DNA from: Desulfobotulus pelophilus
GTDB lineage: Bacteria; Desulfobacterota; Desulfobacteria; Desulfobacterales; ASO4-4
NCBI RefSeq assembly: GCF_026155325.1
Contig: NZ_JAPFPW010000004.1
Span: 1 to 64,000 of the forward strand
Reading direction: 5' to 3'
Length of the DNA: 64,000 nt
Positions 45,796 to 62,877 of this stretch are shown in pieces. The translations under genes and the position numbers were made by a program. Every line of letters starts with the position of its first letter. Position 1 is the stretch's first letter. Below the pieces are notes generated by a model, which worked only from the letters and a program-made list of their open reading frames with translations, was not told where the DNA came from and searched no databases.

Positions 45796-46632
45796 TCAGT
45801 TCCTCGAAACGCCCATCATGATTTCAGTGACAAACTGGGAGCTGTTCCGGGTTGTCCAGTAATCGGTAACATATCTTTCAAAGGAATCTTCACTGAGAAC
45901 ATAGCTGTGATTTTTGGCCCATCGTAACATTTTTTCATAGGTTTCACCTACGGTTTCGTGGGAGCCTATGTGGTAGCAGGAGAGCATCATGTGACCACCG
46001 AAGGTCATTTTTTCATGTTCTTTGCACTCCATCAGTGTTCTTTGCAGTATTCTGATTGGCTGGGGCTTATCCTGCATTCTGTCCCTGACGGATGAAAAAT
46101 TGATGATAACAGGGCCTGTGATCTCATTGTTCACATTTTCCACATAATTAGTGAACTCAATATTGATAATGGATGCTTCAATGTTATTGTCAAAGGCCTG
46201 AATCTGGAAAAGGCAGTCCGATGATTCCACAAATTTGATGGCTACTTCCTGGATATTATTGTCGATGACCATTTCTGCTTCAATGATCAGGTCGTACCAG
46301 TCCGTTACGGAAAGATACTGTCTGCGGATTTCTTCCTGATGGTGTTTCAGTTCCGTAATTTTAGATCGGAAGGAATGCTGGATAGCTTTATATATATTGA
46401 AGGCGTTTCCCTCAATGAAATCCCGCATCTCATCCAGCTTGAAACCCATCTGCTTATAATATTTGATGACAGGCACGGCCAGAAGTGACTTTTGGGTGTA
46501 ATACCGGTAGTTGTTGCTTTCGTCCCTCTGGGAGTTGATCAGGCCGATTTTATCGTAGTACCGGAGAGCTTTTTTGGAAACATTGCACAGAGTGCTGACT
46601 TCTCCGATGGAATACCTGTCTTTATCTTTCAT
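45796..46632 (-). CDS. MerR-family transcriptional regulator of the choline BMC locus
   Basis: A 278-aa regulator with an N-terminal MerR winged helix-turn-helix (YSIGEVSTLCNVSKKALRYY, DKIGLINSQRDESNNYRYY) and a connecting coiled coil (about 80-115). The C-terminal half, about 160 residues, looks like an effector-binding domain of the GyrI-like type (MTFGGHMMLSCYHIGSHETV, EKMLRWAKNHSYVLSEDSFE). It is transcribed away from the transporter and BMC genes. Two MerR-type promoters with overlong spacers lie at 47009-47039 and 48801-48832, so I infer it activates both units, probably on sensing choline or a product. Confidence 0.88.
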   Translation of the reverse strand: MKDKDRYSIGEVSTLCNVSKKALRYYDKIGLINSQRDESNNYRYYTQKSLLAVPVIKYYKQMGFKLDEMRDFIEGNAFNIYKAIQHSFRSKITELKHHQEEIRRQYLSVTDWYDLIIEAEMVIDNNIQEVAIKFVESSDCLFQIQAFDNNIEASIINIEFTNYVENVNNEITGPVIINFSSVRDRMQDKPQPIRILQRTLMECKEHEKMTFGGHMMLSCYHIGSHETVGETYEKMLRWAKNHSYVLSEDSFERYVTDYWTTRNSSQFVTEIMMGVSRN

Positions 46633-47137: not shown

Positions 47138-48223
47138 ATGCAAACATCAGGTTCCGTCTCTTTGGCGGCTGTAGCTGCCAAACACAAAATGGCTTCAGAT
47201 TTCAGGCGCAAGGGCATTATCATCGCCCTGGGCTCCGGTCTGCTGTATGGTTTTTATACGGCATTCATGACCCTTGGCATGTCTGTGGGCATCTGGGATC
47301 ACTGGTATGGAGAGGACTCCGGTCTTTCTGCCTTTGCGGTGTTTTATCTGCTGGCAGCCCTGGGTGCTGCCACAACGGATACCTGCAGTGCCCTGTGGGC
47401 CCTCAGCATTGCCACCATCCGAGGGCGGATCGGGGATTTTGTGAGGACCATTAAGACAAGACCGGGTCTTGTCATGGTCGGTGCTGCGGTGATCGGTGGT
47501 CCCCTTGCCAGTACGGCCTATGTCGTGGGTATTCAGCAGGCAGGTTCCATTGTTGTCCCCATTAGTGCGCTTTGTCCTGCCGTGGGTGCCGTTCTCGGCC
47601 GATTTCTGTTCAAGCAGGAGCTGAACGCCCGTATGATGCTGGGTATTGCCATCTGTCTGTCGGCGACCTTCATGATCGGGATGACAGGCCTTGAAGAGGA
47701 AGCACCTCCCGGATTGCTGATAGGGATTTTCTTTGGGTTTATTGCGGCCGTGTGCTGGGGTATCGAGGGTTGTGTCTGCGGGTACGGAACTTCCATGATT
47801 GATCCGGAAATCGGTATTACCATCCGTCAGGTAACGGCTGGTCTTTCCAACCTTATTATTCTTGTTCCTCTTTTCGGCATGATTGCCGGTGCAAACACCT
47901 TTGGTATGGTAGGTCAGGCCTTTACCGACGGGTATGCCATGATCTGGTTTGCCCTTGCCGGCCTCAGCGCCTATCTTACCTTCATGTTCTGGTACAAAGG
48001 CAACGGTATGTGTGGTGCACCCCTGGGCATGTCCTGTAACGGTACCTTTTCGTTCTGGGGGCCTTTCTGCTGCTGGATCGTTATCGGTGTGATCATGGGC
48101 TTTGAAGGATGGGGGATGTCTCCCGTTGCCTGGGCAGCTGCCCTTATCATGGTTGTGGGTATCTTTATTATTGCCATGAACCCTTTGGATCTGTTTAAGA
48201 AAAAGGATCAGGTGACCGCATGA
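47138..48223 (+). CDS. DMT-superfamily (GRP/EamA-like) transporter, candidate for choline uptake
   Basis: From ATG 47138, with AGGGAGGAAAGG upstream, the protein has 361 aa and about ten membrane helices. Two repeated halves are typical of the drug/metabolite transporter superfamily: GIIIALGSGLLYGFYTAFMT, GGPLASTAYVVGIQQAGSIV followed by PISALCPAVGAVLGRFLF, then a second half with FFGFIAAVCWGIEGCVCGYG. It is co-regulated with the BMC operon by the upstream MerR-type promoter and followed by a 4-base overlap with an 88-aa gene. I infer import of choline or export of trimethylamine; no BCCT or ABC choline transporter is visible in the window. Confidence 0.82.
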   Translation: MQTSGSVSLAAVAAKHKMASDFRRKGIIIALGSGLLYGFYTAFMTLGMSVGIWDHWYGEDSGLSAFAVFYLLAALGAATTDTCSALWALSIATIRGRIGDFVRTIKTRPGLVMVGAAVIGGPLASTAYVVGIQQAGSIVVPISALCPAVGAVLGRFLFKQELNARMMLGIAICLSATFMIGMTGLEEEAPPGLLIGIFFGFIAAVCWGIEGCVCGYGTSMIDPEIGITIRQVTAGLSNLIILVPLFGMIAGANTFGMVGQAFTDGYAMIWFALAGLSAYLTFMFWYKGNGMCGAPLGMSCNGTFSFWGPFCCWIVIGVIMGFEGWGMSPVAWAAALIMVVGIFIIAMNPLDLFKKKDQVTA

Positions 48224-48486
48224 AACCATTGAATTATGCCATTTTAAAGCACTTTACCATTGTTGATGAAGCCTGCGTCGATGATGTGATGGCGGCACTG
48301 AAGGCCCAGTACGGACATTTTAAAGCCTTTAATAAGCCAACAATAATTTCAGCCATCATGACGGCAGAGGCCAATGGGCTTCTGGAGGAGGTCCGTTTTG
48401 AGCTGGCATCCGGTAATGAGCTGAAGGTGTATTATCGTGCCCATGAAGAGGGTGCTGCCACCATCAACCGGTATATCAGGGACTGA
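48220..48486 (+). CDS. 88-aa protein coupled to the DMT transporter
   Basis: A short protein starting on an ATGA overlap with the transporter. The sequence MKPLNYAILKHFTIVDEACV, DDVMAALKAQYGHFKAFNKP, TIISAIMTAEANGLLEE, VRFELASGNELKVYYRAHEEG is consistent with a small winged-helix fold: three helices followed by a beta-hairpin. It may be a DNA-binding modulator or a transporter partner. I do not know a named family. A terminator follows about 85 bases later, so transporter plus this gene form a two-gene transcript separate from the shell operon. Confidence 0.7.
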   Translation: MKPLNYAILKHFTIVDEACVDDVMAALKAQYGHFKAFNKPTIISAIMTAEANGLLEEVRFELASGNELKVYYRAHEEGAATINRYIRD

Positions 48487-48919: not shown

Positions 48920-49522
48920 ATGCGCTATTATGGAGAAGAGGCCCTGGGCCTCATAGAAACGGTGGGGATGGTCCCTGCAATCAACGGGGCCGACAGAATG
49001 CTCAAGGCTGCCAACGTTGAGCTGATTGCCTATGAAAACGTGGGCTCCACCCTTGTAACCGTTATGGTGAAGGGGGATGTGGCGGCGGTTCGTGCCTCTG
49101 TGGAGGCGGGGGCCGCAGGTGCTGCGGAAATCGGTAAGCTTACCGCACACAATGTGATGCCCCGGCCCATCCGTGGGGTGGGGGATATCGTTTCCATCTA
49201 TGCCGTGGAAGAAGAAAACTGCGAACGCCCCAGGGCCATGGGGCTGATTGAGACCTTTGGCATTGTCTTTGTGCTGGAAGCGGCTGATGCCATGCAGAAG
49301 ACGGCAGATGTGGATGTGGTGGGTTTCGAAAACGTTGCGTCAGGTTACATTTCCGTTCTGGTGGAAGGGGATGTGGCTGCCTGTAAGTCGGCGGTGGATG
49401 CCGGAGTAAAGGCGGTGGAGAAAATGGGGGCCAGTGTGTACAGCTCTGTGGTCATACCTACCCCTCATCCGGATCTGGTAAAAATAACAAGGCGCTACAC
49501 CATTGAGAACCTGCTGCCCTGA
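48920..49522 (+). CDS. BMC-T shell protein (two tandem BMC domains)
   Basis: A 200-aa protein of two fused BMC (Pfam00936) domains: ALGLIETVGMVPAINGADRM with VTVMVKGDVAAVRASVEAGA, then AMGLIETFGIVFVLEAADAM with ISVLVEGDVAACKSAVDAGV. Such proteins form pseudohexameric trimers in the compartment shell. The C-terminal IPTPHPDL region lacks the cysteine that holds an Fe-S cluster in PduT. It is the first gene of the operon, 88 bases after the MerR-type promoter. A second BMC-T lies at 60463. Confidence 0.92.
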   Translation: MRYYGEEALGLIETVGMVPAINGADRMLKAANVELIAYENVGSTLVTVMVKGDVAAVRASVEAGAAGAAEIGKLTAHNVMPRPIRGVGDIVSIYAVEEENCERPRAMGLIETFGIVFVLEAADAMQKTADVDVVGFENVASGYISVLVEGDVAACKSAVDAGVKAVEKMGASVYSSVVIPTPHPDLVKITRRYTIENLLP

Positions 49523-49591: not shown

Positions 49592-51103
49592 ATGACAATT
49601 ATTGATAATGATCTGCTCTCCATTCAGAAAGCCAGAATTCTGGCGGAAAATGCCTTTGAAGCCCAGAAGCGTCTGGCGGCTTTTTCCCAGGAAAAGCTGG
49701 ATGAGATCGTTGAGTGTATTGCGGATGCAGCGGGAAAGCAGGCGCAGGCACTGGCTGTCATGTCCCATGAAGAGACGGAATATGGCAGGTGGCAGGACAA
49801 GTATGTGAAAAATGGTTTTGTATGCGGCCATGTGCGCCGGCATCTGAGGGGTCTGCGCTGTGTGGGTATCATTGGTGAGGACCGACAGAAGCAGATTATG
49901 GACGTGGGGGTACCCATGGGTGTGATTGCTGCCCTTTGCCCTGCAACGAGTCCGGTTTCCACCACCATCTATAAAGCCCTCATTGCCATCAAGTCCGGCA
50001 ATGCCATTGTATTCTCCCCCCATCCCAGAGCCATCAAAAGCATAGGGCATGTCCTTGATATAATGATTGATGCTGCCCATTCCAAGGGGTTGCCCGAAGG
50101 ATCTCTGGCTTATCTGGATACCGTTACCTCGGGAGGAACCTTTGAGCTGATGGCACACAGGGCCACCTCCCTGATTCTTAATACCGGAGTTCCCGGTATG
50201 CTTCCGTCCTGTTACAGGGCAGGGAAGCCACTGATTTATGCGGGTACGGGTAATGGCCCCGCATTCATTGAGCGTACGGCAGATATCCGGCAGGCGGTAC
50301 GGGATATTATCCTAAGTAAAACCTTTGATAACGGTATTGTTTCTTCTGCTGAGCAGTCTGTGGTTGTTGACAGCTGCCGGGCCGATGAGGTCCGTCAGGA
50401 GTTTTGCCAGCAGGGTGCTTACTTCATGTCTGAAAAGGAATCGCTGGAACTGGGGGCTCTCTTTTATCGTCCTGACGGAAAGCCCAGCTCCAGAATGATA
50501 GGGGTCAGTGCCGCAACCCTTGCCCGAAGAGCCGGCTTTGATGTTCCAGATCATGTCAGGGTTCTCATTGCTGACCGGAAATATGTTTCTCCGGACGATC
50601 CCTATTCACGGGGGCTTATGGGGCCGGTTCTGGCATTGTACGTGGAGGATGACTGGATGGGTGCCTGTGAGAAGTGTATTGAACTGCTTCTCAGTGAGAG
50701 AAACGGCCACACTCTTGTCATTCACTCCAGGGATGAAGAGGTTATCCGTCAGTTTGCACTGAAAAAACCCGTGGGAAGGATGCTTGTGAATACACCGGCC
50801 ACCTTCGGCGGCATGGGTGCTACCACCAACCTTTTTCCTTCCATGACCCTTGGCAGCGGATCTGCCGGAGACGGCTTTACATCTGACAATGTCTCTCCCA
50901 TGAACCTGATTTACATTCGTAAAATTGGCTATGGGGTGAGGAGTGCCGAATCCATGGGCTATGATGTTTGTCCGGTAGAAACCGTGCCCTGCCTGTCCGG
51001 AAACCCCGGCCCGAAGGGACTTGACATAAAGAGCATGCAGACACTGCACCGTATTCTGCGGGAAGCTGTTCAGGTACTGGACAGGCCCGGTAACAGATAC
51101 TGA
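49592..51103 (+). CDS. CoA-acylating aldehyde dehydrogenase-like paralogue lacking the catalytic Cys
   Basis: A 503-aa protein of the PduP/EutE family by overall sequence: LSIQKARILAENAFEAQKRL, MGVIAALCPATSPVSTTIYK, GNAIVFSPHPRAIKSIGHV, NTPATFGGMGATTNLFPSMT. The catalytic site that reads DNGTVCASEQ in the second copy at 55410 is DNGIVSSAEQ here, so Ser251 replaces the nucleophilic Cys; the codon TCT is clear. The protein is otherwise full length, so selection has kept it. It may be a structural partner of the active dehydrogenase, a scaffold for CutC, or have a changed reaction. A GGGGAG site precedes the ATG; cutC follows 29 bases after. Confidence 0.9.
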   Translation: MTIIDNDLLSIQKARILAENAFEAQKRLAAFSQEKLDEIVECIADAAGKQAQALAVMSHEETEYGRWQDKYVKNGFVCGHVRRHLRGLRCVGIIGEDRQKQIMDVGVPMGVIAALCPATSPVSTTIYKALIAIKSGNAIVFSPHPRAIKSIGHVLDIMIDAAHSKGLPEGSLAYLDTVTSGGTFELMAHRATSLILNTGVPGMLPSCYRAGKPLIYAGTGNGPAFIERTADIRQAVRDIILSKTFDNGIVSSAEQSVVVDSCRADEVRQEFCQQGAYFMSEKESLELGALFYRPDGKPSSRMIGVSAATLARRAGFDVPDHVRVLIADRKYVSPDDPYSRGLMGPVLALYVEDDWMGACEKCIELLLSERNGHTLVIHSRDEEVIRQFALKKPVGRMLVNTPATFGGMGATTNLFPSMTLGSGSAGDGFTSDNVSPMNLIYIRKIGYGVRSAESMGYDVCPVETVPCLSGNPGPKGLDIKSMQTLHRILREAVQVLDRPGNRY

Positions 51104-51132
51104 AAGATTATTCGTAAAAGGGAGGTATGATT

Positions 51133-53673
51133 TTGGATCTTCGAGATTTTTCAAATAAGCTTGCCGAAGCAACAAAAAATCTGAGTCCGGACGAACGGGC
51201 TGCATTGAAAAGAATTTTTGAGGGCGTTTCTGCGGAGATTGCCAAGGGCGTGCCCTCCGATGGGGTTGCCGCTGTGTGCACCGGAACGGCTGTTCCCGAT
51301 GGTCCCACAGAGCGTCATTTGAAGCTGAAGGAAAATTTTTTAAGGCAGGTCCCGAGCATTACCACCCACCGTGCCCGGGCCATTACAAAAATTGCCAAAG
51401 AAAACCCCGGAATGCCAAAAATTCTGCTGAGGGGTAAGTCTTTCAAATATTGCTGTGAAACAGCTCCCCTTGTGATTCAGGAGCATGAGCTGATTGTGGG
51501 CTCACCCAACGGTGCACCCCGTGCGGGGTCATTTTCTCCGGATATTGCCTGGCGCTGGGTGGAAGAAGAAATTGATACCATTGGTAACCGTTCCCAGGAT
51601 CCATTCTATATCTCTGAAGAAGATAAGAAAATCATGCGCGAAGAGCTCTTTCCCTTCTGGAAAGGCCAGTCCGTGGATGAGTACTGCGAAGGCCAGTATC
51701 GGGAAGCGGGCCTCTGGGAGCTTTCTGCAGAAGCCTATGTGACGGACTGCTCCTACCATGCGGTCAATGGTGGCGGAGACTCCAACCCCGGTTATGATGT
51801 CATTCTGATGAAAAAAGGCATGCTGGATATTCAGAATGAAGCCAAAGCCCACCTTGAAAAGCTGGATTACGAAAACCCCGGTGATATCGATAAAATTTAT
51901 TTTTATAAGTCAGTAATCGATACCACCGAAGGCGTCATGATCTATGCCAGACGGCTGTCTCAATGCGCATCGGAGCTGGCGGCAAAAGAAACAAACCCCG
52001 TGCGGAAGGCCGAGCTGCAGAAAATTGCCGAGGTGAATGCCCGTGTTCCTGCCCATGCGCCCAGCACTTTCTGGGAGGCCATTCAGGCGGTATGGACCAT
52101 AGAATCCCTTCTTGTGGTGGAAGAAAACCAGACCGGCATGTCCATCGGTCGTGTGGATCAGTACATGTATCCCTTCTACAGGGCCGACATAGATTCCGGT
52201 CGCATGACGGAATACGAGGCTTTTGATCTGGCAGGGTGCATGCTGGTGAAGATGTCGGAGATGATGTGGATTACCAGTGAAGGTGCATCCAAATTTTTTG
52301 CAGGGTATCAGCCCTTCGTCAATATGTGCGTGGGTGGTGTGACCCGCGATGGCCGGGATGCCACCAACGACCTGACCTACCTGCTCATGGATGCGGTTCG
52401 CCATGTTAAGGTATATCAGCCCTCCCTTGCCACCCGTGTGCATAGCAGATCACCCCAGAAGTACCTGAAAAAGATTGTGGATGTTATCCGGTCCGGCATG
52501 GGTTTCCCGGCTGTTCACTTTGACGATGCCCATATCAAAATGATGCTGGCCAAGGGTGTATCCATAGAAGATTCGAGGGATTATTGCCTCATGGGGTGTG
52601 TGGAGCCCCAGAAAGCCGGACGGTTGTATCAGTGGACCTCCACGGCCTATACCCAGTGGCCCATTTGTATAGAGCTGGTGATGAATCAGGGGGTTCCCCT
52701 CTGGTACGGTAAAAAGGTGTGCCCGGATACGGGGTCTCTTTCCAGCTTTGATACCTATGAAAAGTTCGAAGCTGCGGTCAAGGAGCAGATCCGCTATGTC
52801 ACCAAGTGGTCCAGCGTAGCCACTGTGCTTTCCCAGATGGTACACAGGGACCATGCCCCCAAACCTCTCATGTCCATTATGTATGAAGGCTGTATGGAGT
52901 CCGGAAAAGATGTGGCAGCTGGGGGCGCCATGTACAACTTCGGGCCGGGGGTGGTCTGGAGTGGTCTTGCCACCTATGCGGATTCCATGGCGGCCATTAA
53001 AAAGCTGGTTTATGACGATAAAAAGTACACCCTTGCTCAGCTGAATGAGGCCCTGAAGGCAGATTTTGTGGGCTATGATCAGATTAAAGCAGACTGCCTT
53101 GCCGCTCCCAAGTACGGCAATGACGATGACTATGCCGACCTTATTGCGGCGGATCTGGTTCATTTTACGGAAACGGAACATCGTAAATTCAAGACTCTGT
53201 ATTCAGTTTTGAGCCATGGGACCCTGTCCATTTCCAATAACACACCCTTCGGGCAGTTGCTGGGTGCTTCTGCCAACGGCCGTAAGGCATGGATGCCCCT
53301 TTCCGATGGCATCAGTCCCTCCCAGGGTGCGGACTATAAAGGTCCCACGGCCATTATTAAATCCGTTTCTAAAATGGCCAACGACAACATGAACATTGGC
53401 ATGGTGCACAACTTTAAGCTGATGTCCGGCCTTCTGGATACACCGGAAGGTGAGAACGGTATTATAACTCTGATCCGGACGGCCTGTATGCTGGGCAACG
53501 GAGAGATGCAGTTTAACTATCTCGATAACGATGTCCTGCTGGATGCCCAGAAGCATCCGGAAAAGTACAGGGATCTGGTGGTTCGAGTGGCAGGGTACAG
53601 CGCTTTCTTCGTGGAGCTGTGCAAGGATGTACAGGATGAAATCATCAGCCGAACCGTACTTCGGGAGATCTGA
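51133..53673 (+). CDS. cutC: Choline trimethylamine-lyase (glycyl radical enzyme, type I)
   Basis: Cleaves choline to trimethylamine and acetaldehyde with a glycyl radical. Starting at the TTG at 51133 (GGAGG seven bases upstream) gives 846 aa beginning [10 protein letters not shown], and the active-site residues then fall at the same numbers as in Desulfovibrio alaskensis CutC: Asp216 ([10 protein letters not shown]), Cys489 and Glu491 (MGCVEPQ), Gly821 (RVAGYSAFF). The ATG at 51127 is too close to the ribosome-binding site. [20 protein letters not shown] is specific to CutC rather than glycerol or propanediol dehydratases. The N-terminal helix [20 protein letters not shown] may target it to the shell. 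Confidence 0.96.
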
Positions 53674-53784: not shown

Positions 53785-54717
53785 ATGATTGAAAGAAAAG
53801 CACTGATTTTTAACATACAGAAATACAACATGTATGACGGACCAGGCGTCAGAACCCTTGTATTTTTTAAAGGCTGCCCCCTGCGCTGTCAGTGGTGCTC
53901 CAATCCGGAAGGTCAGAAGCGCCAGCATCAGGTTCTGTTTAAAAAAGATGCCTGTGTAAACTGTGGTGACTGCATACCGGTATGCCCTGTGGGAATTCAC
54001 CGTATGTCACCGGACACCGGGCTCCATGAAGTGAGGCGGGACGTGGAGTGCATTGGATGCCGTCAATGTGAGAAGGTATGCAAGGTTACCGCCCTGTCTG
54101 TTGTGGGAGAAGTGAAAACCATTTCTGAGCTGCTGGATATCATTGAAGAAGACAGGCCTTTTTATGAAATGTCCGGAGGTGGTGTCACCCTTGGCGGGGG
54201 GGAAGTGCTGATGCAGCCGGAAGCGGCAGCCAGTCTGCTCATGGCCTGTCGGGAGCGAGGCATTCATACGGCCATTGAAACCTGCGGGTATGCCAAACCC
54301 GAATCGCTGACAGCGGTGGCCGGGTTTACGGATCTGTTTCTTTTCGATCTCAAGCACATGAATTCGGAACGGCACTATCAGCTGACCGGTGTGCGCAATG
54401 AGTTCATTCTGAGCAACCTGACCATGCTGCTGGAAAACAGGCATGCGGTGCAGATACGGGTGCCGCTTCTGAAACATGTGAATGACAGTGAGGAAGAAAT
54501 CCGCCAGCTCATCGGATTTCTGGAGCCTTACAGGGATTACAGCAACCTCAAGGGTATTGATCTGTTGCCCTATCATCGGCTGGGTGTGCACAAATATGCC
54601 CAGCTGGACTGGGAGTATCCCCTGAAAGGGGATCCGGCCTTAAGCGAGAGTGATCTGGACCGTGTGGAACAGTATATACGGAAATACAGTTTTCCGGTGT
54701 CTGTTATCCGGCACTAG
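53785..54717 (+). CDS. cutD: CutC-activating radical SAM enzyme
   Basis: A 310-aa glycyl-radical-activating enzyme. The radical SAM cluster is bound by KGCPLRCQWCSNPE (CxxxCxxC), and two further ferredoxin-type clusters by CVNCGDCIPVCP and CIGCRQCEKVC. GGGVTLGGGEVLMQP is the SAM-contacting GGE region and TAIETCGYA follows. It abstracts a hydrogen from Gly821 of CutC using reductively cleaved S-adenosylmethionine. It sits 111 bases after cutC with AGGGG before its ATG. Confidence 0.95.
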   Translation: MIERKALIFNIQKYNMYDGPGVRTLVFFKGCPLRCQWCSNPEGQKRQHQVLFKKDACVNCGDCIPVCPVGIHRMSPDTGLHEVRRDVECIGCRQCEKVCKVTALSVVGEVKTISELLDIIEEDRPFYEMSGGGVTLGGGEVLMQPEAAASLLMACRERGIHTAIETCGYAKPESLTAVAGFTDLFLFDLKHMNSERHYQLTGVRNEFILSNLTMLLENRHAVQIRVPLLKHVNDSEEEIRQLIGFLEPYRDYSNLKGIDLLPYHRLGVHKYAQLDWEYPLKGDPALSESDLDRVEQYIRKYSFPVSVIRH

Positions 54718-55409: not shown

Positions 55410-56864
55410 ATGGTAGACAGAGATTTGATGTCCATTCAGGAGGCCCGTGCCCTTGTGCGCTGTGCACGGAAAGCCCAGGAGGATTTTGCCCGCCTGGATC
55501 AGGGCCGGATTGATGCCATTGTCAAAGCTGTTGCGGATGCGGCTGTGGCTCAGGCGGAATTCCTTGCAACCCTTGCTGTGGAAGAAACGGGTTTCGGAAA
55601 GGTTCCGGACAAAAAAGCCAAAAACCTTCTTGCCAGCGAAAAGCTGCATGAAGCCATCAAAGACATGAAGACCATCGGCGTGCTCAGCGATGACAAGGTA
55701 AGAAAAGTCGTTGAGATTGCAACGCCCGTAGGTGTGATTGCAGGGATTATACCTTCTACGAATCCCACATCCACCACAATCTATAAATCCATGATTTCTC
55801 TGAAATCCGGCAATGCCATTGTTTTCACGCCCCATCCCAGCGCCAGAAAGTGTATTGGGAAAACCGTTGAGATGATCCGCGGAGTGCTGAAAAACTGTGG
55901 GGTATGTGAAGATCTTGTCAGTGTGATGAGTGTGCCTTCCATGGAGGGCAGTGCGGAGTTGATGAAGGTTGTGGATCTCATTCTTGCAACGGGCGGTCCC
56001 GGCATGGTGAAGGCTGCTTACAGCTCCGGAACACCCGCCCTTGGTGTGGGTGCGGGCAACGTTCCGGCCTTTATTGAGAGAAGTGCGGATATAGAGGATG
56101 CCGTTGCCAAAATTTTTGCCAGCAAAACCTTTGACAACGGCACGGTCTGCGCATCGGAGCAGGCCATTGTAACGGAAAGTGTGATTGCCGAGCAGGTGAA
56201 AAAAAGTTTCGTTGCCCATGGTGGATATTTTCTCAGCGGTGATAAGGCGGAGAAAGTGAAACGGTACATGGAACGGGGCAATGGCTCCATGAACCCTGAT
56301 ATTGTTGGCCGGGATGCGGCTTATATAGCCCGTTTTGCCGGTATCGATGTTCCCCCGGGAACCCGGATTCTTATTTATGAGGAAGAGGGTGTGGGGCCGA
56401 AGTATCCCTTCTCCAAAGAAAAACTCACAGCTCTTCTGGGCTTTTATACGGTGAATGACTGGAAGGAAGCCTGTGAGATCTGTGACAAACTCTTGAGAAA
56501 TGGAGGCGTGGGACATTCCCTTGCCATTCACTCCAGAAACGAAGAGGTGATCCGGGAGTTCGGACTGCGAAAACCCGTTTCCCGCATGCTGGTTAACACC
56601 CCCTCAACCCAGGGAGCCGTTGGTATCAGTACCAGTCTCTTCCCATCTTTTACACTGGGTTGCGGCACCGTTGGCGGAAGCGCCACTTCCGACAATGTTA
56701 CCCCGCTGAACCTGATGAACGTGCGCCGGGTCGCCTATGATCTGGGGAACACCTGCTGTTCCTCTGCGCCGGTACCGGCGGCATCCGCCGCATCGACGAC
56801 ATCGTCCATTGATATCAATGCCGTAACGGCGCTGATTGTGGAGCAGCTTAGAAAAATGGCCTGA
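55410..56864 (+). CDS. CoA-acylating acetaldehyde dehydrogenase, Cys247 intact, C-terminal encapsulation peptide
   Basis: A 484-aa PduP/EutE-type enzyme that converts acetaldehyde, NAD and CoA to acetyl-CoA. The nucleophile Cys247 is in DNGTVCASEQ, with PVGVIAGIIPSTNPTSTTIY, AGNVPAFIERSADIEDAV and NTPSTQGAVGISTSLFPSFT. At the C-terminus an Ala/Ser/Pro linker leads to an amphipathic helix DINAVTALIVEQLRKMA, a typical encapsulation peptide. It follows the tailed shell gene by 3 bases. It is the catalytically competent partner of the Cys-less copy at 49592. Confidence 0.95.
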   Translation: MVDRDLMSIQEARALVRCARKAQEDFARLDQGRIDAIVKAVADAAVAQAEFLATLAVEETGFGKVPDKKAKNLLASEKLHEAIKDMKTIGVLSDDKVRKVVEIATPVGVIAGIIPSTNPTSTTIYKSMISLKSGNAIVFTPHPSARKCIGKTVEMIRGVLKNCGVCEDLVSVMSVPSMEGSAELMKVVDLILATGGPGMVKAAYSSGTPALGVGAGNVPAFIERSADIEDAVAKIFASKTFDNGTVCASEQAIVTESVIAEQVKKSFVAHGGYFLSGDKAEKVKRYMERGNGSMNPDIVGRDAAYIARFAGIDVPPGTRILIYEEEGVGPKYPFSKEKLTALLGFYTVNDWKEACEICDKLLRNGGVGHSLAIHSRNEEVIREFGLRKPVSRMLVNTPSTQGAVGISTSLFPSFTLGCGTVGGSATSDNVTPLNLMNVRRVAYDLGNTCCSSAPVPAASAASTTSSIDINAVTALIVEQLRKMA

Positions 56865-56944: not shown

Positions 56945-57229
56945 ATGTCCTCATTGAATGCACTGGGAATGATAGAAACCAAAGGTCTTGTGGGCGCCAT
57001 TGAAGCAGCAGATGCCATGGTCAAGGCAGCCAATGTTACCCTGATCGGACGGGCCCAGGTAGGTGCGGGTCTTGTGACCGTTATGGTTCGTGGTGACGTT
57101 GGTGCGGTGAAAGCGGCAACGGATGCCGGCGCGGCGGCGGCGGACAGGGTCGGTGAACTGGTGAGCGTGCACGTAATCCCCCGTCCCCATGGTGAAGTAG
57201 AGCTGATCCTTCCGAAAATTGAGGGGTGA
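56945..57229 (+). CDS. BMC-H shell protein
   Basis: A 94-aa single-domain hexameric shell protein: [40 protein letters not shown], and the terminal [17 protein letters not shown]. The sequence is PduA/EutM-like. AAGGAG precedes the ATG. It is nearly identical to the shell protein at 61431, indicating a recent duplication or gene conversion within the locus; the two differ mainly at the ends and at a few surface positions. Confidence 0.95.
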
Positions 57230-57235
57230 TAAGGT

Positions 57236-57982
57236 ATGAAAGTCATATCGGAATCCTTTCTGAGGGAGCTTTTCAGAAAAGAGATCCCCGAGACTTTCAG
57301 GGTGGAGGAGGGTCAGATTCTGACCCCCTCCGCTGCACAGCTCCTTGGTGAAAGAGGAGTGAAAATCATCAGGGATGAAGACAGGGCTTCGGAGAAATTG
57401 CCGGAAGTCCGGGAAACGGCCGGAGATATCCCGGAACCTCAGTACGTGGTGGCCGGAGGCGGTATGCTGACAAGTAAGCCCGAGCATATGACCCAGCTTC
57501 GCGGTAACTGTCTGGTAGCCAAAGATCACGTCCGCATTATTCTCCGGGGCAGGCTGGACAGCCTTCAGTCCGAAATCCTTCTTGTCCAGGGTAAAGCCCA
57601 TGGTAGCGGCCTTACGAATCTTGTCAGAGATCTGGGCGATGTGCTGGCACAGGCAAGGGCGGTGATGAGGGCAGAGGTACTGGAGGAACCCCTGCCGGAA
57701 GGTCTGATCATGGGGCTGGGTGCGGCGGAACTGAGGGCACAGTCCCATCATCCAAAACAATATTTCGGCGTGGATCATCTTCTCCCCTCTTTTACCATGG
57801 GGGAAATGCTGCTGACCCTGAATGCGCTCAGAAGCCTGGTCCGGGAAGTGGAAGTGGCCGCCGTCAGTGCCTTCAGAGCTGAGTTTGGATCGGAACGTCC
57901 GGATATCATTCAGGCCCTGAACCGGATGAGCAGTGCTGTCTACATCATGATGCTCAGGGAGGCGACGGGCAGGTACCGTTGA
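57236..57982 (+). CDS. EutT-like corrinoid adenosyltransferase homologue
   Basis: A 248-aa protein resembling EutT. The N-terminal section (MKVISESFLRELFRKEIPET, QILTPSAAQLLGERGVKI) is followed by KPEHMTQLRGNCLVAKDHVR and RIILRGRLDSLQSEILLVQG, then a helical adenosyltransferase-like part to GRYR. The HX11CCxxC metal motif of Salmonella EutT is not present; only one Cys lies in that region, as also in some Listeria-type EutTs. CutC needs no B12, so the presence of a cobalamin adenosyltransferase-like protein here is unexpected. It may have another ligand, or serve a B12 enzyme elsewhere. It overlaps no neighbour and starts 6 bases after the shell gene. Confidence 0.78.
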   Translation: MKVISESFLRELFRKEIPETFRVEEGQILTPSAAQLLGERGVKIIRDEDRASEKLPEVRETAGDIPEPQYVVAGGGMLTSKPEHMTQLRGNCLVAKDHVRIILRGRLDSLQSEILLVQGKAHGSGLTNLVRDLGDVLAQARAVMRAEVLEEPLPEGLIMGLGAAELRAQSHHPKQYFGVDHLLPSFTMGEMLLTLNALRSLVREVEVAAVSAFRAEFGSERPDIIQALNRMSSAVYIMMLREATGRYR

Positions 57983-58062: not shown

Positions 58063-58734
58063 ATGAATGAACAAGCCATGAAAGATATCCTTGGTGATAT
58101 CATCAGAAAAGTGCTGGAACAGCTGGAGGGTGCATTGCCTGTGGTTCCGGAGGCAGCCGATGGGGTGGACGGGATTCCTGTGGAGCTTTCCGCGCGCCAT
58201 GCCCATCTGAGTGAAGAAGATGCCATCGCTCTTTTTGGAGGTCCACTGACAAGGGTAAGGGATCTTTCCCAGCCGGGTCAGTTCCTCTGTAAGGAGCGGG
58301 TACGGTTGATCGGTCCTAAAGGGGTTATCGATAATGTGGCCATTCTCGGGCCTTCCCGCGGCAGTTCTCAGGTGGAGATTTCCAAAACCGATGCCCGTAT
58401 TCTTGGAGTGGATGTCCCCATCCGGCAATCCGGTGATACGGCCGGAAGCCCCGGAATCATTCTTGCCTCTCAGCAGAATGTGGTGGGCCTGGAGGAAGGA
58501 CTGATTGTTGCGGGACGTCATATTCATATGGCACCCAAGGATGCAGAAAGATTCGGCGTTACGGATAACACCAGAGTCAGTGTCCGGCTGAACAGCCAAA
58601 GGCCTGTTATTCTGGAAGACGTACTGGTTCGCGTGAATGAAAATTTCCGTCTTGCCATGCACATCGACCTGGATGAGGGAAATGGAGCCGGTTGGAATAC
58701 GAATGTCACTGGCAGTATTGTGGCAAAACAATAG
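58063..58734 (+). CDS. pduL: Phosphate acyltransferase, PduL type
   Basis: From ATG 58063 (AGGGAG six bases upstream) the protein has 223 aa. An N-terminal amphipathic helix (NEQAMKDILGDIIRKVLEQL) is the encapsulation peptide. Two PduL metal-binding repeats are visible: ELSARHAHLSEEDAIALFG and LIVAGRHIHMAPKDAERFG, with VAILGPSRGSSQVEISKTDA between them. It converts acetyl-CoA and phosphate to acetyl phosphate, recycling CoA inside the compartment. An upstream in-frame ATG at 57979 overlapping the EutT-like gene is not supported by a ribosome-binding site. Confidence 0.93.
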   Translation: MNEQAMKDILGDIIRKVLEQLEGALPVVPEAADGVDGIPVELSARHAHLSEEDAIALFGGPLTRVRDLSQPGQFLCKERVRLIGPKGVIDNVAILGPSRGSSQVEISKTDARILGVDVPIRQSGDTAGSPGIILASQQNVVGLEEGLIVAGRHIHMAPKDAERFGVTDNTRVSVRLNSQRPVILEDVLVRVNENFRLAMHIDLDEGNGAGWNTNVTGSIVAKQ

Positions 58735-58745
58735 GGAGACGGCAG

Positions 58746-59567
58746 GTGGATTTCACAGCCATTGATCAACAAATCAACGCCCTTGAACAATGTGTGGACA
58801 AAACGGTTCCCGTGGACAGGGATGAACCCCTGCTTGTGGGGGTGGATCTTGGAACGGCCTACATTGTGGTGGTGGTCCTGAACAGCAGCAGCGAACCCGT
58901 GGCCTGTGCCATGGAGTTTGCTCAGGTGATCAAGGACGGGCTGGTGGTAGATTACATTGGTGCTACCCGCATTGTCCGCAGGCTGGTGTCTCAGCTGGAA
59001 GAACGGTTGGGCCGGACTCTGGAGCGCGCCGCCATCGCCGTTCCACCCGGAACCGGAGAGAAGGACTGCAAGACCCATGGCTATGTTGTGGAAGGAGCAG
59101 GGCTGGAGGTGGTAACCATTCTGGATGAGCCTACGGCAGCCAATGCGGTGCTGGGTATCTCCAGTGGAGTGATTGTGGATATTGGTGGCGGTACCACGGG
59201 CCTTTCCGTCATTGAAGAGGGCAAGGTGGTGTATGTAGCTGATGAAGCCACGGGCGGCACCCACCTTTCCCTTGTGCTGGCCGGCAATTACCGGGTGAGT
59301 TTTGAAGAGGCGGAAGAGCTGAAAAAGGACAGAAGCCGTCAGAATGAAATCCTTTCTGTGGTGCGTCCGGTTATTCAGAAGATGGCCTCCATCGTCAATA
59401 CTCATATACAGGGAAGGGATGTGAAAGCCATTTATCTTGTGGGCGGTACCTGTTGTCTGAAAGATATGGAAAAGGTGATGGAAAAGGAAACGGGTAAGCC
59501 TGTGTACAAACCGGCCAATCCATTTCTTGTAACGCCTTTGGGCATAGCCATGAACTGCGGCAGGTAG
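58746..59567 (+). CDS. eutJ: EutJ-like actin-fold (DnaK-type) chaperone
   Basis: From GTG 58746 (GGGAG seven bases upstream) the protein has 273 aa. It has the actin/Hsp70 ATPase fold: LVGVDLGTAYIVVVVLN (phosphate-1), AIAVPPGTGEKD, VTILDEPTAANAVLGI, VIVDIGGGTTGLSVIE (phosphate-2), and IYLVGGTCCLKDME (adenosine). EutJ-type proteins are thought to help fold or assemble BMC cargo. An in-frame frame extension back to 58692 overlaps pduL and lacks a start signal. The symbol follows the ethanolamine operon member it resembles. Confidence 0.88.
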   Translation: MDFTAIDQQINALEQCVDKTVPVDRDEPLLVGVDLGTAYIVVVVLNSSSEPVACAMEFAQVIKDGLVVDYIGATRIVRRLVSQLEERLGRTLERAAIAVPPGTGEKDCKTHGYVVEGAGLEVVTILDEPTAANAVLGISSGVIVDIGGGTTGLSVIEEGKVVYVADEATGGTHLSLVLAGNYRVSFEEAEELKKDRSRQNEILSVVRPVIQKMASIVNTHIQGRDVKAIYLVGGTCCLKDMEKVMEKETGKPVYKPANPFLVTPLGIAMNCGR

Positions 59568-59576
59568 GAGATAGCC

Positions 59577-60167
59577 ATGGATGTGGACGAGCTGGTCCGA
59601 ACCATTACGCGTGAAGTACTCAGGCAGATGACAGGGGAAAGTCCCAGAAAGTCTGTCATGGTTCTGGCCGAAAGAACGGATTTTCTTGCCGAACGGATTC
59701 AGGGGTTGCTGGGTCAAGAGGCGGAGATCCGTTTCAGAGGGGAAGGGGGGGTCCAGAAAGGTGCTGACCGCTATATCCTGCCCTTTCTTTCCTGCGGAAG
59801 CATGGCTGATCTGGCGGCCGGTCGTCCTGGTGAAGGGGAGGTTTCCGAAGTGCTTTCTCTTCTTCTGAAAGGGTATACAGTAGACGTGCTGGATTTTGAA
59901 TACAGGATGTATACGGATACGGCACCCGGCCCCCTGTATGGTTTGTATGAATCCTATCGAAAAACGCTGGCAGCTTACGGACTGAAAGAATTTGTCCGGG
60001 ATCAGCCCCATGCACTCAGGTTGAAAAAAACTCTGGTGACGGAAAAGGATATCCTTGAGGCACAGGAGCAGGGTGCATCGGTTCTCTGGCTTTCCATGGA
60101 CGCAAAGGTGACACCTCTTGCCGCTGAGTCTGCCAAAGACCTGAATGTACGGCTTCTGAAACGCTAA
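59577..60167 (+). CDS. BMC-associated protein with N-terminal targeting-like helix, function unknown
   Basis: A 196-aa protein. The first 20 residues (MDVDELVRTITREVLRQMTG) form an amphipathic helix of the type that targets cargo to BMC shells, ending at a short linker. The body shows a Rossmann-like start (KSVMVLAERTDFLAERIQGL), then RYILPFLSCGSMADLAAGRP, VSEVLSLLLKGYTVDVLDFE, and EKDILEAQEQGASVLWLSMD. It may be distantly related to flavoprotein-type BMC accessory proteins, but I cannot name the family. It is probably luminal cargo or a cofactor-handling protein. TAGGAG precedes the ATG. Confidence 0.75.
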   Translation: MDVDELVRTITREVLRQMTGESPRKSVMVLAERTDFLAERIQGLLGQEAEIRFRGEGGVQKGADRYILPFLSCGSMADLAAGRPGEGEVSEVLSLLLKGYTVDVLDFEYRMYTDTAPGPLYGLYESYRKTLAAYGLKEFVRDQPHALRLKKTLVTEKDILEAQEQGASVLWLSMDAKVTPLAAESAKDLNVRLLKR

Positions 60168-60183: not shown

Positions 60184-60459
60184 ATGATAATCGGCAAAGT
60201 GATCGGAAACGTATGGGCTACCCGTAAGGAAGAGTCCCTGAACGGTATGAAGCTGATGGTGGTCCGGCGTCTGGATACCGAAAGCGGATGTGAACAGGAA
60301 AGCTTTGTAGCGGTGGATTGCGTGGGAGCCGGTATTGGAGAACGGGTTCTCGTAACCACGGGGAGTTCCGCGCGCATGGCATTGGATAATCCTAACAAGC
60401 CTGTGGATGCCACTATAGTCGGAATCATCGACGAAGTGGAAGTCCGGGCGGAGGGTTGA
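60184..60459 (+). CDS. BMC-P pentameric vertex protein (EutN/CcmL type)
   Basis: A 91-aa pentamer-forming shell vertex protein: MIIGKVIGNVWATRKEESL, GMKLMVVRRLD, FVAVDCVGAGIGERVLVTTG, PVDATIVGIIDEVEV. It closes the icosahedral vertices. GGAGG is 10 bases before the ATG. It is the only BMC-P in the window, and many loci need only one. Confidence 0.95.
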   Translation: MIIGKVIGNVWATRKEESLNGMKLMVVRRLDTESGCEQESFVAVDCVGAGIGERVLVTTGSSARMALDNPNKPVDATIVGIIDEVEVRAEG

Positions 60460-61709: not shown

Positions 61710-61767
61710 AAACGGTTTGTGCTCGTTGCTATGAAGAATATTGGATTTACATGAGGAGGGTCGGCGG

Positions 61768-62877
61768 GTGACACAGTTTAACGGAAGAACCAAAATCTGC
61801 TACGGATCAGATGCCATTGAGACCCTCGAACATTTACCGGCGAAGCGGGCTTTTATTGTTACGGATCCCTTTATGGTGAAAACCGGCTTTGCTGCCAGAA
61901 TCCAGAGTCATCTGGACCGGGCCGGAATTCTCCACCGGGTTTTTGACGGTGTGGAGCCCGACCCTTCTCTGGAAACGGTAACGCGAGGTACCCTGCTTCT
62001 CCTGCAGCATGAGTCGGATCTGGTCATTGCTCTGGGAGGAGGCTCGGCCATTGATGCGGCCAAAGCCATGATGTTCTTTGCCCATAAAGCCAGGGAAGAT
62101 AAGAAAAAGCCCATGCTGCTGGCCATACCCACCACCAGTGGTACCGGATCGGAGGTAACGGCCATTTCCGTGGTGACGGATACGGCCAACGGCGTAAAGG
62201 TGCCCCTGAATGATGAGTTGCTGATTCCGGATGTGGCCATTCTGGATGCACGGTTCACCCGTACCGTTCCCCCTTCCGTAACCGCTGTAACGGGAATGGA
62301 TGTGCTTACCCATGCCATTGAGGCCTACACTTCCCGTCAGGCCAGTGCCTTTACCCGTATTTATTCGGAATATGCCACTAAATACGTGTTCCAGTATCTT
62401 TTCAGGGCCTATCAGTGCGGGGATGACATGGAAGCCAGGGAAATGATGCTGCTGGCATCCTGTATGGCTGGTATGGCTTTCAATAACAGTGGTCTGGGTA
62501 TTACCCACAGTATGGCCCACAGCCTTGGCGGACTTTTTCATATCGCCCACGGCATGGCCAATGCTGTGCTGCTTCCCTATGTGATCCGGTTCAACAGCTT
62601 TGATGTTGGCGTGAAATATAGGGAAATTGCCGGGATGCTCGGGCTTGCCGCCAGAACAGTGGAGGAGGGAACCACAAGCCTGATTGCGGCCATATGCAGT
62701 ATGAATGACTCCATGGGTATTCCTAACAGGATACGGGATCTGAATATAGAAGAGCGTGCTTTCCGGGAGCATCTGGGCACTATGGCCGGCCATGCACTGG
62801 AAGATGCCTGTACAAAAGGCAATCCGAGAATGCCGTCCCACGGGGACATCAGAGGCCTTCTGGAAAAAGCCTGGTAA
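61768..62877 (+). CDS. Iron-containing alcohol dehydrogenase of the BMC (PduQ/CutO type)
   Basis: From GTG 61768 (GAGGAGGG seven bases upstream) the protein has 369 aa of the group III iron alcohol dehydrogenase family. It has VIALGGGSAIDAAKAMMFFA (NAD binding), PTTSGTGSEVTAISVVTD, GMDVLTHAIEAYTS, and HSMAHSLGGLFHIAHGMANA with the iron-binding histidines. It reduces acetaldehyde to ethanol and regenerates NAD for the acylating dehydrogenase. A TTG at 61741 in frame is an inferior start. Confidence 0.93.
   Translation: MTQFNGRTKICYGSDAIETLEHLPAKRAFIVTDPFMVKTGFAARIQSHLDRAGILHRVFDGVEPDPSLETVTRGTLLLLQHESDLVIALGGGSAIDAAKAMMFFAHKAREDKKKPMLLAIPTTSGTGSEVTAISVVTDTANGVKVPLNDELLIPDVAILDARFTRTVPPSVTAVTGMDVLTHAIEAYTSRQASAFTRIYSEYATKYVFQYLFRAYQCGDDMEAREMMLLASCMAGMAFNNSGLGITHSMAHSLGGLFHIAHGMANAVLLPYVIRFNSFDVGVKYREIAGMLGLAARTVEEGTTSLIAAICSMNDSMGIPNRIRDLNIEERAFREHLGTMAGHALEDACTKGNPRMPSHGDIRGLLEKAW

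Follow-up and report, generated by a model that had tools for sequence, protein, structure and literature searches.

A Cys-Less Aldehyde Dehydrogenase Homologue of the CutF Lineage beside cutC in a Choline Microcompartment Locus of Desulfobotulus pelophilus and Its Possible Role in Core Assembly

Why does the choline locus of Desulfobotulus pelophilus retain, next to cutC, a full-length aldehyde dehydrogenase homologue with Ser in place of the catalytic Cys, when another copy with the Cys is encoded in the same locus? We explored this question in a window of 64,000 nucleotides (the whole stretch of DNA that was analyzed). The features concerned are as follows.

45796-46632, upstream and divergent: MerR-type regulator
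48920..49522, + strand: BMC-T (double BMC domain) shell protein, PF00936 twice, directly upstream of the Ser copy and the same neighbour in 27/27 loci
49592..51103, + strand: Ser copy, a Cys-less aldehyde dehydrogenase homologue (the "inactive second copy" of GRM1), intact ORF of 503 aa with Ser251 at the nucleophile position
50342..50344, + strand: Ser251 codon TCT at the catalytic-Cys position of the Ser copy; Ser, Pro or Ala in 27/27 orthologues
51023..51076, + strand: predicted C-terminal amphipathic helix of the Ser copy, residues 478-495 approximately, KSMQTLHRILREAVQVLD, of the encapsulation-peptide type
51127..53673, + strand: cutC choline trimethylamine-lyase, TIGR04394 1656 bits, N-terminal extension of about residues 1-55
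53785..54717, + strand: cutD activating enzyme, TIGR04395 554 bits
55410..56864, + strand: Cys copy, the catalytic acetylating acetaldehyde dehydrogenase of the same locus, 484 aa, Cys247, TIGR02518 above cut-off
56945..57229, + strand: BMC-H shell protein, PF00936
57979..58734, + strand: phosphotransacylase (PduL/EutD type), NF011652 above cut-off
58692..59567, + strand: EutJ-like protein, NF011660 / TIGR02529 above cut-off
60184..60459, + strand: BMC-P (EutN/CcmL) shell vertex protein, PF03319
61386-61709: BMC-H-like ORF, by sequence resemblance
61741..62877, + strand: iron-type alcohol dehydrogenase; best NCBIfam matches AdhE/ErcA/lactaldehyde reductase, all under cut-off

The two copies share 43% identity over 445 aa. 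The nucleophile motif is SKTFDNGIVSSAEQ in the Ser copy, with Ser251, and SKTFDNGTVCASEQ in the Cys copy, with Cys247. This difference, noticed in a preliminary description of the sequence, is borne out by the ORF translations and the TCT codon, and the rest of the Ser copy is intact over its full 503-aa ORF, as had also been stated. Against NCBIfam TIGR02518 (acetylating acetaldehyde dehydrogenase, EutE/CutF; cut-off 620.1 bits), the Cys copy scored 641.8 bits and the Ser copy 542.6 bits, so that the latter lacks both marks of the family, the curated score and the catalytic Cys. From the residue loss, we infer that the Ser copy would have no dehydrogenase activity.

Together these genes identify a choline microcompartment locus of the GRM1 (type I cut) kind. 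In it, CutC and CutD are encoded alongside PF00936 and PF03319 shell genes, and the N-terminal extension of CutC is short and conserved, compared with one of about 350 aa in GRM2; the D. pelophilus CutC has 848 aa, with the family match beginning at residue 60. The gene order is an EamA-like transporter (weak match), BMC-T, the Ser copy, cutC, cutD, a BMC-domain protein, the Cys copy and BMC-H, followed by an EutT-like protein, the phosphotransacylase, EutJ, BMC-P, a second double-BMC protein, the BMC-H-like ORF and the alcohol dehydrogenase. The Ser copy is indeed the first enzyme gene of the operon, with only the EamA-like transporter, a small ORF lacking a Pfam match and BMC-T upstream, and it lies ahead of cutC, which starts 23 bp downstream. 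The EutT-like protein (57236-57982) scored 124.7 bits against NF011595, under the cut-off of 226; the locus has no B12-dependent signature enzyme. No Pfam match was obtained for two further ORFs in the operon region, 59577-60167 (196 aa) and 48220-48486 (88 aa).

The Cys-less second aldehyde dehydrogenase of GRM1 is already known, including the general idea of a structural or regulatory role. Axen et al. (2014) reported that in all GRM1 loci with two aldehyde dehydrogenases, one carries Ser or Pro where the catalytic Cys would be, and proposed that it acts as a scaffold or regulator (PMC4207490). Sutter et al. (2021) marked a "putatively inactive second copy" in both GRM1A and GRM1B loci (PMC8217296). 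Because both points were published in these studies, neither is new here. The Ser copy, a second aldehyde dehydrogenase with Ser251 for Cys in the same locus type, belongs to this published group, with no essential difference; one orthologue (L091) has Ala, a residue that the 2014 text does not name beside Ser and Pro. We found no later experimental papers on the inactive GRM1 protein in the open-access literature, and no solved structure of it was named among the structure matches, of which 3k9d was the best.

We gathered 27 orthologues of the Ser copy from whole genomes and public contigs, and aligned them with 64 comparison rows (GRM1 Cys copies, GRM2 CutF, EutE and AdhE). In the tree, whose sample has no Desulfovibrio-type GRM1 loci, the Cys-less proteins formed one clade (support 100/100). 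This clade was sister to the Cys-bearing aldehyde dehydrogenases of the Proteus and Klebsiella GRM2 loci (100/99), GRM2 being represented by two sequences, one of them from a gene that is apparently disrupted in its record (two frames, one stop). The same sister grouping was recovered after the set was cut down to contain fewer long branches; there, forcing the Cys-less proteins and the GRM1 Cys copies together was rejected (delta lnL 33.7, p-AU 0.0066). Residues common only or mostly to Cys-less proteins and GRM2, such as VGVP and GYGVR, agree with the tree, and Cys is present in every row of the Cys copy's clade. Both the tree and the AU test rule out that the Ser copy arose recently by duplication from the adjacent Cys copy. 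The Ser copy had first been described as a paralogue, and this needs revision: it is not a duplicate of its neighbour and belongs with the CutF lineage of GRM2. It would have come from a lineage of the CutF type, in which the active members work in GRM2 loci. A single loss of catalysis would have preceded the split of the sampled lineages, and the protein would then have been kept as a non-catalytic part of core assembly.

CutF, the active aldehyde dehydrogenase of GRM2 choline loci in Klebsiella and Proteus (PMC6971018), is thus the closest Cys-bearing relative in the tree. Like the Ser copy, it belongs to a choline microcompartment and has this type of amphipathic helix at its C-terminus. 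However, CutF keeps the Cys, it is encoded apart from cutC in the GRM2 loci read here, whereas the Cys-less GRM1 gene adjoins cutC, and it works beside a CutC with a long N-terminal extension, unlike that of GRM1. EutE, the acetylating acetaldehyde dehydrogenase of ethanolamine loci, resembles the Ser copy in fold and over the full length; it provides the best solved structure (3k9d, 474 bits), and an EutE-type gene of Listeria is 47.7% identical. Unlike the Ser copy, it has the catalytic Cys and falls in the Cys-bearing part of the tree.

The order BMC-T, Cys-less gene, cutC was found in 27/27 loci examined. This arrangement bears on the suggestion that the Ser copy joins the Cys copy (55410-56864) in mixed tetramers, and thereby tunes or places it. 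The two proteins belong to the same fold family with 43% identity, they are encoded in the same operon, both are present in the genomes where both were looked for, and ALDH-type enzymes form tetramers (PMC5311937, PMC6971018). However, they fall in separate, old clades, and in every locus examined the neighbour of the Cys-less gene is cutC, not the Cys copy. We regard such mixed tetramers as unlikely.

The relation to CutC was also studied across the phylum. An even sample of 395 genomes contained seven with CutC above cut-off. The Cys-less gene was present in all 6 sampled genomes with an N-terminally extended CutC, and it was absent from the sole sampled genome with an unextended CutC (G071; 1/7). 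The Cys-less gene also accompanies extended CutC in ten further genomes, which were chosen for having this gene. In G071, cutC and cutD (L147) have none of the shell gene types of the D. pelophilus locus within about 8 kb, and choline is apparently cleaved outside a microcompartment there. Four genomes (G645, G623, G661, G677) encode a second CutC-like glycyl radical enzyme of about 60% identity, above the CutC cut-off and without the extension, starting at residue 52-63 (L151:1842-4244 in G645; L142-L145 also cover the other three). Each of these genomes has only one Cys-less aldehyde dehydrogenase. The substrate of the second enzymes may be other than choline; that of G645 lies near a BMC-T gene.

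A helix related to the CutC extension was seen elsewhere. In a microcompartment locus, L149:623-1609 (+) encodes an amidohydrolase (PF04909) whose C-terminal helix is 55% identical to residues 7-42 of the D. pelophilus CutC extension; L067 contains a related stretch (the genomes are G507 and G512). It looks like the same encapsulation peptide on two unrelated enzymes.

The nucleophile residue in the 27 orthologues was Ser in 8, Pro in 18, Ala in 1 and Cys in none, whereas Cys occupied this site in 64/64 other EutE/AdhE-type rows. Chance loss of the Cys is ruled out by these counts. Among the Cys-less orthologues, the conserved feature is the absence of Cys and not the presence of Ser, whose conservation had been the check proposed at the outset. 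The finding that homologues in this position all keep Cys, which would have spoken against the proposed structural or regulatory job, was not made (0/27). Wider changes were also observed. We counted as near-invariant the 83 columns that are at least 97% conserved in Cys-bearing rows. In D. pelophilus Cys-copy numbering, Ser249 is replaced by Ala, Cys418 by Ser and Asn437 by Tyr in 27/27 orthologues, and Asn118 by Ser (in PSTNPTS), Thr120 by Val and Gly196 by Val in 24/27. From general knowledge of aldehyde dehydrogenases, we take Asn118 to be the likely oxyanion-hole Asn and Gly196 to be in the cofactor site. Because 68/83 near-invariant columns are still kept in most orthologues, the aldehyde dehydrogenase fold is probably retained.

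The same columns could be explained if the protein were a sensor or carrier, which would bind NAD(H), CoA or an acyl ligand without oxidising aldehyde, and so regulate or buffer the cofactors of the lumen. The 68 kept columns, together with the GHT histidine and the SDNV.P.NL segment, are consistent with ligand binding. However, conserved pocket positions are replaced (Asn118, Gly196, Ser249, Cys418, Asn437), and the kept columns may reflect folding only, so that we consider a ligand-binding role quite improbable. A changed enzyme that uses Ser as the nucleophile, such as a hydrolase, a thioesterase or a slow dehydrogenase, might be suggested by the Ser of the D. pelophilus copy and of seven other orthologues, including the earliest-branching ones. 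However, within the clade the residue at this site has switched between Ser, Pro and Ala on three or more occasions, and the likely oxyanion Asn is lost in 24/27; we find this very hard to accept. Ser as a new nucleophile is ruled out as the shared function by Pro or Ala in 19/27. Since Ser is one of three substitutions and Pro is the commonest, the chemistry of Ser is not the point.

Selection was estimated from pairwise dN/dS (NG86). The Cys-less gene showed values of 0.06-0.14 between close genome pairs, and up to 0.17 for distant pairs in which dS is near saturation; in the same genomes, the Cys copies gave 0.06-0.10. Between D. pelophilus and genome G001, amino acid identity was 69% for the Cys-less protein and 82% for the Cys copy. 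The Cys-less protein evolves somewhat faster, yet it is clearly constrained, and purifying selection acts on its gene almost as strongly as on that of the active copy. Sequencing error or a pseudogene is ruled out by the 27 intact orthologues and the low dN/dS. A decaying duplicate without function might explain the faster evolution, but with dN/dS of 0.06-0.17, full length in all orthologues and a gene order fixed in 27/27, it is scarcely credible. The structural or regulatory job proposed in the preliminary description is partly supported: a protein that is retained without the catalytic Cys, under strong purifying selection and always beside cutC, is consistent with a structural job; the emphasis on Ser is not supported.

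Like type I microcompartment aldehyde dehydrogenases, the Ser copy carries a predicted C-terminal amphipathic helix of the encapsulation type. For QTLHRILREAVQVLDR the hydrophobic moment was 0.83, compared with a shuffled mean of 0.44, and 0/200 shuffles were as high. A helix at 479-496 was also present in a low-confidence AlphaFold2 model made from seven sequences (mean pLDDT 56.9). The helix is common to most Cys-less orthologues, and weaker in some; the tails of L032 and L033 gave no signal in the hydrophobic-moment test. The tail of the Ser copy resembles that of GRM2 CutF more than that of the GRM1 Cys copy.

Kalnins et al. (2020) showed for the Klebsiella GRM2 system that CutF brings CutC into larger assemblies when CutC is full-length but not when it is truncated at the N-terminus, and they proposed tetrameric CutF as a multivalent cross-linker (PMC6971018). 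These published data point to CutC as a possible partner of the Cys-less protein as well. By analogy, the Ser copy may be a CutF-derived, non-catalytic core-assembly protein that cross-links or places CutC, a reading to which we give about an even chance; its cross-linking part is drawn from the GRM2 CutF–CutC experiments. Because the Cys-less protein stands nearest to CutF in the tree, lies beside cutC and occurs with extended CutC, it most likely lost catalysis and retained a CutF-like task of gathering or placing CutC. The GRM2 role is carried over to it by phylogeny and analogy, and is set beside what was observed here, namely the loss of Cys and of the wider active site, the single clade and its sister group, constraint, cutC adjacency, co-occurrence with extended CutC and the helix. 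Against a GRM2-type role, the CutC region used by CutF sits in the N-terminal extension of about 350 aa, which is absent as such from GRM1 CutC.

The process could run as follows. Judging from homologues, the Ser copy would fold and oligomerise like an acylating aldehyde dehydrogenase, probably as a tetramer. It would then bind the N-terminal part of CutC and, as GRM2 CutF is proposed to do, gather CutC dimers as a multivalent cross-linker. Its C-terminal helix and the CutC N-terminal extension may attach this core to the shell. The Cys copy, a separate protein whose gene lies downstream, would oxidise the acetaldehyde made by CutC. In Clostridium ljungdahlii grown on choline, the aldehyde dehydrogenase gene adjoining the choline lyase was up by log2 7.2 (PMC12016505). 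By its position, this gene would be the Cys-less orthologue, and the data support its expression with the choline pathway.

The inactive second aldehyde dehydrogenase of GRM1 has been unexplained since 2014. What we add to earlier work is the ancestry shared with GRM2 CutF and the tie to extended CutC, and these two points suggest a definite part, open to testing, in the assembly of the trimethylamine-forming organelle. In its fullest form, a GRM1 protein of the CutF lineage would have dropped catalysis and kept the ancestral gathering of CutC, leaving catalysis to a separate aldehyde dehydrogenase, and would have become the obligate partner of an extended, compartment-targeted CutC; we offer this tentatively and think it somewhat doubtful as a whole. 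The role of the Cys-less protein is relevant to gut choline metabolism and to the building of synthetic compartments.
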